A stretch of 64,000 bases of DNA from Lineus longissimus (taxonomy: Eukaryota; Nemertea; Pilidiophora; Heteronemertea; Lineidae). A model generated the notes under the pieces. The model had not been told where the DNA came from and did no database searches. It saw only the letters and a list, made by a program, of their open reading frames with translations. Each line of letters begins with the position of its first letter. The stretch's first letter is position 1. The stretch covers positions 20,843,219 through 20,907,218 of the forward strand of contig NC_088315.1 in the NCBI RefSeq assembly GCF_910592395.1, written 5' to 3'. Shown here in pieces: positions 27,386 to 63,300 of the stretch. Both the position numbers and the translations under genes were made by a program.

Positions 27386-30300
27386 CTGAAAGAGAAAGGT
27401 GAAGCGAGGCATCATCCACATGTTGCTGGAGTCACAGTGGAACCAATGAGCCTTCTTCCTCTTCCAACACACAACAGATACTACTTCACAACTCATAATA
27501 CATTACTTCTATACATCTAAACAGTATATTCTGTGCAGATGAACTTGTGCCGACAACATCACAAAGCTATCACCACTGTACAGATATATACACAATGATC
27601 CTCTTTAACCCTATAAAGGAACACCTCAAACAAGCAATGTATTACTTCAAAACACTGCACACCTGATGAAAAAATGTCCCAGGTAAGCAAAATGTCTTTA
27701 CACCAACAAGCACAGGCTCTAAGTTTCCAAGTTCAAGTAGTTCTCCTGTTTGCTGAAGTGGCTCTGTTCTTTAGAGGTTCTTCACTGACGTCACATGATA
27801 ACGTTACCAATTGTTTTTCACTGCCATACTGGTCACGATGTAAAGGAAATGCATTGGCAGGTGGCCGTCAAAACATCATGTCGTGACGTCACGTGAAGAA
27901 CCTCTGTTCTGGTTAATATGCCTCAGACACTACATGACATGTCCTGTAATGCCACGATGTACTACCAAGAGGTTGGTGGCCCTGCACTGATAAGGAGTTT
28001 CCAGTCCTAGACACCTTGACATCCCCACACCTGCTCTCGTAAGTTTCAGCTTACAAAAGATGTGTTTCATGAGGCCACATGCTCACCAACCACTCTACTT
28101 ACTTTGAGGCAGTGAACACACTTGATGAGTTGGTAGTGATGGCATTGACAGGACTCGTATGGGCCTTGATCTCTCCAATCTGCATGCAGCTATCAACATG
28201 CCACAGCTTCAGGTAGCCTCCACGACAGCAACTCAGCAGGCAGTTACCACCAGGCATAAATGCTAGCCCACACACCCAGTCTTTGTGAGCCGAGTTTAAA
28301 GACTGGAAGAGAGAGGGGAGGGTTAATTATTCTCTCGGGAGGATTCAGCTACATCATCTCTACTTTATTATTGAAACTAGGTATAGTTGGATCACCGGCT
28401 GATAATCAGGAGGTCATGGATCACTGCAAACTACCTTGTACCAGGCACCTTGGCAAGGGCAAGCAAGACACCGTATCAATGTAGACAGAAGCAAGTCACC
28501 CACCTGTTTGAGTTGTTGTTCGGCCACGTCCCACTTCTTGATACAGTTGTCCCTGGATCCACTGAAGAGGACGTTACCAGTCATAGCCAGACACTGGATG
28601 CCATCATAGTGCGGCGGCTCCAGGTTGTACTTGGGTGTGAGGACACCGATGGCTGTCTGCGGCATTTGGAATACCTGTAACACCATGAATTATATGCCAG
28701 TTATGGGATGTCATCATAGTGGGCTGGCTCTTCTTGAATGTGACAACACCATGTACCAAAGGCTATTTTGGGCATTTGAAACCCTGAAGGAGTCACATGC
28801 AAAGTAAAGGGCTGACCGAAACTCCAAATAGACATCAGGTATGTAACTTTTACACCACAAGTAGGTGCCCTTGATGTCCTGAACCAATGAGCAACCGTGG
28901 GAGATGACATACTTTGATATAATGATCTTTTGATCCTGTGACCACAGTCACCTGCTCATCTTCCTCCACAGTCAGTGTCATGATCGCCGCCTGGTGGCCA
29001 CCGCTGAGTTTACCAACCGGCAGGAAGCGTCGCAGGTCCCACAGTCTGACTAGATTGCCCGCCGCGGAGAAGAGCATGGTGCCCTGGCGATTGTGTGCGA
29101 TGTCGTTGATCATCATCTCACCGAGAGGTAGGCCTACCTGGCGGGAGGATGAGGCTGCTGTGGCCAGCGGACCATTCGTAGACTGGCCTGAGGAGCTGCA
29201 GAGAGAACTCAGTGAGAATCAGCACGAACTTCATCCAAAATGGGGCAAACCATAAAATACATAAGAGCAAGAACCAATCAAACTGTCCAACAGTCAGCAA
29301 TGCTCATTATCAAGTTTACACTGTTTTAAAGTAGCAGCTACTGAGGTCTTTGAAAAGAAGTAACTGTGGCCTTCTTTTTGACCTCCGGAACCTATGTTAC
29401 TTACCACAGTGTCTTCACACACTTATTATTATCCCTGATGTCCCATAGTTTGGTGAAGTAAGCTGACACAGTGAAGGCCAGATGGCTTGCCTCACAGTAC
29501 TTCACACAGGTGACATTGTTGGGATGACCGGCTAATGTGGCTACTTCTTGCCCAGTGTTCAAGTCCCACACCTTGGCACTTCGATCTGAAAAGACAAAGA
29601 CCAACTTACGATGAAGAGGGAGATATCCCAGTGGATTGATTTAGAAACGGTCGCTGCAAAATCCAGCAACTTTTCCCTGTAGCTTCCCTTGGACATCAGA
29701 CCTGCACCCGAGAAAATGGCAGTAATTCATCTCATTAGGGGATGAGGCCAAACAATCTTACACAACATTTGATTGAACCTCAGCCTTGTGTGTACACACC
29801 AGTGGACACGACTTGCTTGACATACCTTTACTGCTGCTAAACAAGAGGTCATCTGTAGCACACACTGAGAGGACGGCCTTGGTATGACCCTCAGCCTTGT
29901 GTGTACACACCAGTGGACACGACTTGCTCGACTGTAACTTTGTATTCGGGTTGATACTACCACTGAAATATGACAGTCAAGAATGATAAACAAGACATAC
30001 AGGGTTTCAAATGAATAAACAGGGTTAACTTTGATTCACCATTTCAACAATGCAGAGTTTTGTCTTCGGTTGGAGTCAAAGGATTTCTTCCCGGAGACAG
30101 ATCATTCGTTTGTCGACACACTACATCTGTAGGGCGAGTGGTCCATGTTTTGGCATCTTCTCAACAACTTGACATGTCACTATACGGTTGGATATGTTGT
30201 CCACTCCTGCTTTATAACAGAACCATCCACCACAGCTTCACTATCTATCCTCACCTGTTGTTTGAAGGTGAAGATGACCTTGACCCTGTCAGCCTGGAAA

Positions 30301-60300: not shown

Positions 60301-63300
60301 TTATCTCTATCCTTGACAACGGAAAACACACTCGTCATCCTGCAACGTGGAACTTGCCGTGGTAAACATATCCAATGAAGGCTGCAAATTTGAAAGTTAC
60401 GAATGATGACTTTGATAGATACATTGTGTCAATAACGTTATGCCATCTTGGAGATAACAAAGTACGTTTAGAGATAAGTTCTTGGAGAGGATCTGCATAT
60501 TACTGGGCTCAAGTAGAACATTCATCCTATAGATTGCTATGGTGTTGAACAACCTCCAAGGAACAAATGGTCATGTCAGGGGTAATGTTGGCAGATTTCT
60601 CACAGCTTTGTTTGTTTACCTAGCCTTACCTAGATCCACTATGCCACTCTCCTCACCTCCATCTCCTCATCACTCACATCAACACCTCACCCAGTCAGCC
60701 CCTCCCAGCCTTACCTTGATCCTCTATGTCAGAGTCCTCGCTACTCTCCTCACCGAGGTCCACCTCGACCTCTTCCTGGTCTGCCTCCATCTCCTCATCA
60801 CTCACACCAACACCTCACCCAGTCAGCCCCTCCCAGCCTTACCTTGATCCTCTATGTCAGAGTCCTCGCTACTCTCCTCACCGAGGTCCACCTCGACCTC
60901 TTCCTGGTCTGCCTCCATCTCCTCATCACTCACACCAACACCTCACCCAGTCAGCCCCTCCCAGCCTTACCTTGATCCTCTATGTCAGAGTCCTCGCTAC
61001 TCTCCTCACCGAGGTCCACCTCGACCTCTTCCTGATCTGCCTCCATCTCCTCATCACTCACATCCTCATCTGACTTCTCCTGGCTCTCAACGTTCTCATC
61101 GTCCTCTGCTTCGTTTATGTCCTTGTCATTGTCGCTTGGTTCCTCTTTGATACTCCCATGGCTGAAATGGGAAAGATGGTTTATTGCAAGCAACTGACTC
61201 CAAAGGAATAGGGTGATTTCAAGTAATTCAAAAACAAATCTGAATCAGTCAACTATATAGTATCATGAGAGAGTTGTCATCAAGAGGATTTCAATACGCC
61301 TACTAGACATATGAGAATGTACATCAACTTCTATATGGAGCCTGAGGCTCAGACATCTTGACTGGCAACACGAAGGCACAGCAGAATGTTTTGTATTTGC
61401 CAGTGCAAAGGCATGGACACTGATGCCAGTCCATGATGAGGGACATCTACTGCAAACCCACCTCTTTGTCTTACTACTCTGCCGTGAATATGTCTTCTTC
61501 TTCAGCTTCTGCAGATCTTGCTTGGCGAGTTCAAGGATGTCCTCCACCTGATCGTCATGTGACGCATTGACATCATAGCCACCGAAACCCCCCATCGACT
61601 GCATCGGTGTCGACAAGCCCATGGACATGCCCATGGAACTCGTGGATCGACTGGAGGGTGATCGTGCGGACTGTTTGCGAAGTGTCTCACACAGCGCTTC
61701 AGATTCGACAAGTTTTGTCCTGAGTTCTTCAATCTCCTGAATGTATCCCTGGATAAGTTTGCTGATCTCATCTTGGCTGGCGTCCCCTGCAAACATCAAA
61801 TGAGTACGAGTAATGAGTTAGCTTGGCTGGCGTCCCCTGCAAACATCAAATGAGGACGAGTAATGAGTTAGCTTGGCTGGCGTCCCCTGCAAACATCAAA
61901 TGAGTACGAGTAATGAGTTAGCTTGGCTGGCGTCCCCTGCAAACATCAAATGAGTACGAGTAATGAGTTAGCTTGGCTGGCGTCCCCTGCAAACATCAAA
62001 TGAGTACGAGTAATGAGTTAGCTTGGCTGGCGTCCCCTGCAAACATCAAATGAGTACGAGTAATGAGTTAGCTTGGCTGGCGTCCCCTGCAAACATCAAA
62101 TGAGTACGAGTAATGAGTTAGCTTGGCTGGCGTCCCCTGCAAACATCAAATGAGTACGAGTAATGAGTCATCTTGGCTGGCGTCCCCTGCAAACATCAAA
62201 TGAGTACGAGTAATGAGTTAGCTTGGCTGGCGTCCCCTGCAAACATCAAATGAGTACGAGTAATGAGTTAGCTTGGCTGGCGTCCCCTGCAAACATCAAA
62301 TGAGTACGAGTAATGAGTTAGCTGCCAAAATCATCCACTGATATACAACCAATCACCCTACCAAGGTATCGCTGAAAGTATTGCCAACATGAAGAGAGTT
62401 TTAACTATCGCCCGTCTTTCCTGACCAATGATATCAGAACTACTTTGTTAATATCACTGTTCAATCTTTAGTTAACTAATCTCGAAGTGAGTCAACCGAT
62501 GGTGAAAAGTTTGAAAAAACAATTCTGTAAGCTTCTGTAAGATCTACAAGCTTTCTGACCAGCCTCCAGAACAGAGCAATGAGAAATGTCAGGACCTGTG
62601 AATTTGACGGCACGGCATCATATGATGTTCTCATGGTCTGTTACAGTCAATGTTTTAACCTGGTTGGAAGTCAGCATCACCTGGCTTTAGTTTTTGTGCC
62701 GTTATAGTTCATTGTAAAAGTGAGGTTACATCAGATAGGGTCCTTCCACAGTGGGTCAGAGTGAAGCAAGCTTTACCTGAGATGTTGGTGATATTCTGTA
62801 ACGCTCGCTCAGAGAGAAGCTGCACATTCTTCGCGTTCAAGTTCTCGATGGTCTCCTGCATGGCTTTGATCCTCTTCCTCAGGTTGTTATTCTCTGTCTG
62901 TAGCATCGTGTTCTCATGGAACATATCATTGATTGTCTCAACACCATCACCGTCAACCACTCTCCTACCCTGAAATAGTCAACACTTTGTCAGCAGAAAC
63001 AAAGTAGACACTATCATTTCTTCTCTACATTACATACACATAGAGTCATGGTTGAAATCAGATGTGGCAGGACCCATAACCAGCCAGTGGTTGATTGAGA
63101 TGCTGTACCCCAGGCTAGAATGAGGAAGCGACCAACCAACATAGTGACACAGTGCTTCAAGTAGGGAAAGCAACGTTTGACCAGACCCAGCTCACCCATG
63201 TCATCTCACCTGTTTGTACTCCATCAGTTCTTCCTGCAGGAGTTTAATCTCCATCCTCATCGCCGCAATCTGCTTACTCGTCTTATCTTGATTGACCGTC

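Follow-up and report, generated by a model that had tools for sequence, protein, structure and literature searches.

Splice junction-spanning minisatellites in the KIF21 gene of the nemertean Lineus longissimus, probably a chance cluster of a genome-wide process

The window, the whole 64,000-nucleotide stretch of Lineus longissimus DNA analysed here, contains KIF21 coding exons at 24226..63848 on the minus strand. The gene model comes from the annotated KIF21A protein of L. longissimus (P0121), placed on the window DNA; it covers residues 307-1714 of that protein and includes 26 introns, residues 1-306 lying outside the window. All 26 introns are GT-AG, each has one best position, and around each of them all 17 residues checked match. 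A query that contained some intron ends and lacked some exons was 86% identical to L. longissimus KIF21A and 42% identical to Branchiostoma floridae KIF21A, on which ground amphioxus was rejected as the source of the DNA. An earlier note on this DNA had recognized the gene as KIF21, and this identity holds. The seven junctions to which that note drew attention are indeed KIF21 splice sites, and its coordinates agree to the base with the protein-derived model (coordinates denote the first base of the intron at the four donors and its last base at the three acceptors).

Five of these junctions are spanned by tandem arrays, all on the minus strand, which were delimited by Tandem Repeats Finder together with the gene model. 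At the 3' splice site 61,787, a 50-bp unit of 35 intron and 15 exon bp is repeated 11.0 times (61772..62323), and the copy adjoining the exon body is the one used. The 5' splice site 60,970 lies in an array (60656..61062) of a 128-bp unit, composed of 92 exon and 36 intron bp, for which the program reports 3.2 copies; the count of 3.7 given previously also takes in a shortened fourth copy, which can be seen in the sequence. The donors at 57,868 and 54,822 are covered, respectively, by 6.0 copies of a 71-bp unit (57503..57929; 61 exon and 10 intron bp) and 2.0 copies of a 68-bp unit (54735..54871; 49 exon and 19 intron bp). At the 3' splice site 52,031, a 46-bp unit of 34 intron and 12 exon bp occurs in 4.0 copies (52019..52201), adjoined by an intronic array of 15 copies of a 58-bp unit (52174..53045, minus strand, Tandem Repeats Finder). 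The two units have 28 exact bp in common, and it looks as if the intronic array had extended into the junction.

The claim that all seven junctions had been duplicated stands for the five arrays and also for the acceptor at 28,675, where a decayed upstream copy of the splice site and exon start is real (28675..28790, minus strand; limits approximate, set by eye). It does not stand for the 5' splice site 29,825, which is overlapped by a duplicate and is not itself duplicated: a partial exon copy of ~45 bp lies just inside the intron (29779..29825, minus strand), and this extra 0.4 copy is entirely intronic and brings no second donor. We aligned the exon edge of every one of the 52 modelled junctions with as much as 600 bp of the intron belonging to it, and the same seven junctions took the top seven places; the eighth junction scored 22. 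The scores at 28,675 and 29,825 were 35 and 83, and none of 300 control intron stretches scored as high as either. At the five array junctions the exon-edge score was matched by 1-2% of controls, which were drawn from the same introns with the arrays included.

The arrays place up to ten look-alike splice sites next to the real one, as in the 11-copy array at 61,787. An intact GT or AG is present in 21 of the 22 distal copies examined, and their scores lie no more than 0.3 from that of the used site. Despite this, at every one of the five arrays the annotated protein takes the exon-proximal copy. Splicing at any of the 21 intact distal sites would lead to a premature stop, so they do not look like useful redundancy. 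The copies are also nearly identical: of the sites compared with the used copy, 12 of 724 in the exon part and 11 of 593 in the intron part differ, and this near-identity accounts for the intact distal signals without selection.

These arrays are junction-spanning minisatellites, or "mirages". The amphioxus precedent named in the earlier note holds: two papers (PMC3087553, PMC3902484) describe, under that name, minisatellite-like tandem duplications over 5' or 3' splice junctions in Adh3, the globins BflGb6 and BflGb9, troponin C and PGBD5, with unit lengths between tens of bp and about 160 bp, AG or GT kept in most copies and the regular product still made. In KIF21, the unit lies over the exon-intron boundary at five of the seven junctions, 29,825 and 28,675 being partial or decayed; unit lengths of 46, 50, 68, 71 and 128 bp fall within the range of about 10-160 bp given in PMC3087553; and the splice signal is kept in many copies, as described above. 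The Lineus case differs from the amphioxus ones in coming from another phylum (Nemertea), in its five arrays within one gene, and in having a measured rate, which for the 90 arrays outside KIF21 does not exceed chance. Among the matches listed for the literature on mirages, border repeats, intron gain and Nemertea, a body with most subscription journals outside it, we found no nemertean report of junction-spanning arrays.

Two other systems offer partial parallels. In human segmental duplications (PMC2812944), minisatellite arrays at exon-intron borders can likewise expose several splice signals, but there they give rise to novel introns and to alternative transcripts among recent paralogs, whereas KIF21 is single-copy-like and its annotated product ignores the distal sites. 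Intron gain in potato RdRp (PMC4974935) is also reported to involve tandem duplication of a stretch bearing a splice signal; unlike it, the KIF21 arrays lie at existing introns flanking a continuous conserved protein, with no new intron in evidence.

As the earlier note had claimed, the five units are unrelated, nine of the ten pairs giving a shuffle P of at least 0.05 and one pair 0.01. A mobile or introner-like element was rejected: the units are mutually unrelated, and a genome DNA search with 61700-62321, by a method that skips very common words, matched only itself. Coding protein repeats were ruled out, none of the five unit lengths being divisible by three.

We then compared the number of junction-spanning arrays with chance. 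KIF21 has 19 arrays, of which 5 span a junction, while random placement of the units in the array-collapsed gene predicts 1.37 (permutation P = 0.008, Poisson P = 0.013, both uncorrected and post hoc, because KIF21 was picked for its pattern). Array length was rejected as the yardstick, since an array grows after its first copy; unit length in collapsed sequence is the fair null. Unit coverage in KIF21 peaks at junctions, with 8.8% in the last 10 exon bp and 7.9% in the first 10 intron bp, against 0.7% at 50-100 bp. The difference between KIF21 and the other loci has a P of about 0.02-0.03, uncorrected.

Those loci belong to a sample of 348 kb of the 391-Mb genome, comprising one chromosome-end region and ten myosin loci, of which 293 kb lie outside KIF21. 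Arrays with a unit of at least 15 bp are dense: 92 of them (three overlapping others) occupy 35.5 kb, or 13.5%, of 264 kb. Of the 90 arrays outside KIF21, 7 lie across a predicted junction, compared with 7.7 expected (P(>=7) = 0.67); the observed/expected ratio is 0.91, with a 95% interval of 0.37-1.87, and a sample of this size leaves room for enrichment below about 1.9-fold. The exons used here were predicted by an in-house caller that had been seeded with KIF21. Its yield of 36 exons on reversed sequence and 169 on true sequence in 264 kb means that about a fifth of the calls may be false at the chosen cut-off, so any junction peak would be blurred. A stricter exon cut-off of 16 gave 6 junction-spanning arrays against 6.7 expected, and a permissive repeat search again gave no junction excess (9 of 206 arrays against 11.9). 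Two of the seven cases are weak, one having a 17-bp unit at 89% match and the other a 28-bp predicted exon. Clear mirages do occur in other genes: one myosin gene, on C10 (L022), has a donor array of six copies of a 72-bp unit, and another, on C15 (L029), has two donor arrays.

Coverage by collapsed array units outside KIF21 shows no peak at the junctions of predicted exons. It climbs from exon to intron, from 0.2% at 50-100 bp into the exon and 1.4% in its last 10 bp to 2.2% in the first 10 intron bp, 3.2% at 10-25 bp and 2.7-3.3% up to 300 bp, and within the introns of the sampled DNA array density is about even. Exons hold fewer arrays than expected: of 115 arrays, 1 lies inside an exon, where chance would put 10.6 (P = 0.0003). 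The earlier assertion that arrays in this gene include exon edges more often than chance allows is borne out, at uncorrected P; outside KIF21 no such excess was seen. The note had itself proposed that a lack of junction enrichment across the genome would refute it; within the 348 kb reached this test went against the note, no such enrichment being found outside KIF21.

These data bear on the two explanations that the earlier note had offered, neither of which they support. Splice junctions might, in at least some genes, be favoured starting points of duplication, for instance where transcription or splicing leads to DNA breaks at exon edges. The KIF21 excess and coverage peak, the difference from the other loci, and the decayed or partial copies at two more KIF21 junctions all point that way; yet outside this gene, which was selected for its pattern, both the excess and the peak are absent, in the standard and the permissive search alike, and we consider this reading unlikely. 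A stronger form, for which we would give longer odds still, is that duplication genuinely favours the junctions of KIF21, and perhaps of other genes like it, as a hot spot, for example at transcription-linked breaks, and that the splicing machinery reads up to eleven equal sites by a strict exon-proximal rule. Selection might instead retain spare splice sites, the redundancy giving robust splicing or alternative products, as the well-preserved distal signals could suggest. Against this, every intact distal site leads to a stop, no unit is a multiple of three, copy near-identity explains the signals, and arrays show no junction excess outside KIF21, all of which makes such selection very improbable.

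The arrays could also be intermediates of intron gain or lengthening through tandem duplication, an idea put forward for the globin genes of amphioxus. Their structure fits the starting point of the model of Ebner et al. 2010, and the L. longissimus exon at 57,868 has about eight residues absent from Gigantopelta, implying that this donor may have moved. However, alignment with the KIF21 proteins of Tubulanus, Gigantopelta and Lingula shows no gap at the junction itself at the other six of the seven junctions, which means that the exons neither gained nor lost a piece at these places, and we regard this origin as quite improbable. Finally, tandem arrays are a classic site of assembly error, and one amphioxus mirage was misassembled in a draft genome, according to PMC3087553. 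The present assembly, of which one haplotype was analysed, was made from HiFi reads at 79-fold coverage with fragments of 12-20 kb, which makes the invention of arrays of 0.1-0.6 kb unlikely; for the KIF21 arrays, of 0.14-0.55 kb, an artefact is scarcely credible.

We conclude that the KIF21 arrays probably reflect genome-wide minisatellite growth, purged from exons and tolerated at junctions, with KIF21 as a chance cluster. According to this model, the genome would form and expand short tandem duplications at sites independent of gene structure, the first copy arising perhaps by replication slippage or template switching. Where the first duplicated segment happened to straddle an exon edge, every new copy would carry a splice signal; unequal exchange may then add copies and keep them as nearly identical as those observed. 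Selection would remove arrays within exons, and junction-spanning arrays would survive because splicing still chooses the copy adjoining the exon body and the remaining copies stay intronic. That exon-proximal use, seen here from the annotated protein, might reflect exon definition or the decay of wrong transcripts. Over time copies would decay, as at 28,675 and perhaps 29,825, and KIF21 would represent an upward fluctuation of a neutral array process.

Mirages, a curiosity of amphioxus genes, are now extended to a distant phylum, and a list of cases is replaced by a rate: in our sample, junction arrays are about as many as unit length and repeat density predict. This rate argues that mirages need only a minisatellite-rich genome and tolerant splicing, and no special mechanism. 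Nature has, moreover, set up in these arrays a competition between splice sites, with 2 to 11 near-identical sites in a row within one transcript, at donors and acceptors, and with one choice that keeps the frame open. Site choice can be scored directly from RNA reads and, because the used copy is transcribed first at donors and last at acceptors, could separate exon definition from first-come selection.

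Searched as protein, the window's KIF21 exons, joined roughly, gave the Lineus longissimus KIF21A isoform X2 as the top match among the 120 listed (86% identity, 99% coverage); KIF21A of B. floridae matched at 42% identity over 72%. Contig C8, in a genome totalling 391,118,348 bases, contains the window; for this heteronemertean ribbon worm, PMC8593623 describes a 391 Mb assembly from PacBio HiFi reads at 79-fold coverage. Mapping of the annotated L. longissimus KIF21A protein P0121 (1714 aa, from a cluster of four sequences) placed the gene between 63,848 and 24,226 of the minus strand, with 26 introns in the window. 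All 26 are GT-AG and uniquely placed, with 17/17 surrounding residues matching. Residues 1-306 fall past the right end, reaching position 227,948 of the 264 kb formed by the window and its 200 kb flanks. Judging from its name style, our guess is that RNA data lie behind the P0121 model. Elsewhere in the genome, kinesin-domain exon matches form two sets that are almost the same, at C9:12.853-12.857 Mb and C6:1.255-1.259 Mb; these represent either a recent gene duplicate or an assembly duplicate.

An earlier note had reported duplication at seven KIF21 splice junctions: acceptors 61,787, 52,031 and 28,675, and donors 60,970, 57,868, 54,822 and 29,825. All seven are present at these positions in the P0121-based model, and the duplications are real: when each of the 52 modelled junctions was aligned to its own introns, these ranked 1 to 7, the seventh scoring 35 and the eighth 22. 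The two weakest differ in what was copied. The intron upstream of 28,675 contains a second, diverged version of the acceptor and exon start, the note's decayed copy. At 29,825, about 45 bp of exon do recur just inside the intron, but a second donor is absent, so that a duplicate overlaps this junction and the junction itself is not doubled.

The other five junctions carry tandem arrays, described here as read on the gene strand. At acceptor 61,787, 11 copies of a unit of 35 intron and 15 exon bp each have GCAG ahead of the exon portion; an upstream CTAAC, which we take to be a branch-point-like motif, is also present in 10 of them, and the remaining copy has GATGAC. The acceptor array at 52,031 has four copies of 34 intron and 12 exon bp, with TTTCAG. 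Among the donors, 60,970 has a unit of 92 exon and 36 intron bp in three full copies with GTAAGG, and a fourth that an inner deletion has shortened; by eye, this copy still ends in a GTAAGG that is out of register and falls outside the scored copies. Donor 57,868 has six copies of 61 exon and 10 intron bp (GTAAGT), and 54,822 two copies of 49 exon and 19 intron bp (GTATGT). Next to the 52,031 array lies an intronic one with a 58-bp unit, at 52,174-53,045; 28 exact bp occur both in that unit and in the 46-bp unit at 52,031, hinting that one array grew out of the other. Two further intronic arrays were seen: a 19-bp array of 9 copies (44,219-44,390), which begins 41 bp past donor 44,431 without touching it, and a 57-bp array in the 10.6-kb intron, which forms a 269-residue open frame at 38,180-38,986 on the minus strand that is not a gene but an artefact of the repeat.

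Summed over the five arrays, distal (extra, intron-side) copies differ from the used copy at 12/724 exon sites and 11/593 intron sites; the copies are therefore young or kept alike. We examined 22 in-register distal positions (10, 3, 5, 1 and 3 at 61,787, 60,970, 57,868, 54,822 and 52,031). GT or AG is intact in 21, whose scores match that of the used copy or depart from it by no more than 0.3; the sole failure is the fourth copy at 60,970, which has AT instead. Up to eleven near-equal sites exist per array, of which the annotated protein picks one, at all five arrays the copy adjoining the exon body. Joining exons through each of the 21 distal choices always met a stop before the normal end, even in the 5 that add a multiple of three.

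We also aligned 30 residues around each junction with KIF21 of Tubulanus polymorphus, Gigantopelta and Lingula. Over these residues, five of the seven junctions align without gaps, and at 60,970 Gigantopelta shows a two-residue gap that does not touch the junction. All three compared proteins have gaps at 57,868, about eight L. longissimus residues being absent from Gigantopelta; from this alignment, the donor may have moved in the L. longissimus lineage.

Junction arrays also occur in other genes. A myosin locus on C10 (L022) has six copies of a 72-bp unit repeating ...CATCCAG|GTAAGG at an exon end, with donor use predicted; reading through the first distal donor is predicted to meet an in-frame TGA. 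A second myosin gene (L029, C15) has arrays of 137 bp x 2.5 and 46 bp x 2.2 at two predicted donors. The structure is therefore not special to KIF21. In a further myosin gene, L024, a 61-bp array of 6.9 copies (2211-2630) stops 7 bp before a predicted donor-side exon edge and was left uncounted.

Does placement at junctions exceed chance? An array was called junction-spanning if, with all arrays collapsed, a single unit enclosed a junction with 4 bp or more to spare on either side. With the exact KIF21 model, 5 of 19 arrays span junctions against 1.37 expected by random placement (P = 0.008). The comparison set comprised the 200 kb that surround the window plus 83.7 kb from ten myosin loci; these loci were hand-picked for exon density from 88 Pfam PF00063 matches, other clusters being left out. 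Exons were called on collapsed sequence by codon usage and a splice matrix, seeded with KIF21 and retrained on the caller's own calls. Of the 25 internal exons of KIF21, which served as training seed and not as a held-out test, it recovers 24, with the exact position for 18 acceptors and 22 donors; in the 264 kb it gives 169 calls at cut-off 14 against 36 on reversed sequence, and 133 against 8 at cut-off 16.

With the window's first 24 kb included, the flanks (209.7 kb) contain 64 arrays and 120 predicted exons; they gave 3 spanning arrays against 4.4 expected, and the myosin loci (26 arrays, 105 predicted exons) 4 against 3.7. Together, flanks and myosin loci show no junction excess (7/90 against 7.7 expected, P(>=7) = 0.67; observed/expected 0.91, 95% interval 0.37-1.87). 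This independent sample thus lends no support to the junction-directed mechanism that the note had proposed. Outside KIF21, counts were similar at cut-off 16 (6 against 6.7), for units of at least 30 bp (5/52 against 6.6), for arrays at least 95% alike (5/39 against 4.2) and for at least 3 copies (3/47 against 4.6); the flanks alone gave 5 against 6.0 at cut-off 12 and 0 against 2.6 at cut-off 18. A permissive repeat search found 9/206 against 11.9 outside KIF21 and 6/54 against 3.1 within it, and when exons were instead called without collapsing the arrays, a junction fell within 12 of the 115 (8 outside KIF21, 4 in it). With predicted exons KIF21 also gave 5 (P = 0.09), a count that includes one false exon inside the array at 45,162 and misses the 52,031 array, which overlaps a larger one. 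Pooling KIF21 with the other loci gave 12 against 9.1 to 10.6 expected, which is not significant. Only 1 of 115 arrays lies entirely within predicted exons, against 10.6 expected. Unit coverage peaks at junctions in KIF21; outside it, coverage rises from exon to intron with no junction peak.

The amphioxus precedent named in the note holds: the kind is already known, as mirages, junction-spanning minisatellites (Ebner et al., PMC3087553; PMC3902484). PMC3902484 gives PGBD5 as another amphioxus mirage gene and also mentions troponin C, and PMC2812944 describes tandem repeats at exon-intron borders giving alternative introns in recent human paralogs. We found no report of mirages in a nemertean in the literature searched, and to that extent the taxon is new. 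In every feature that could be compared, the KIF21 arrays agree with the description of amphioxus mirages. The junction arrays of L. longissimus KIF21 are confirmed, as a kind of structure already known.
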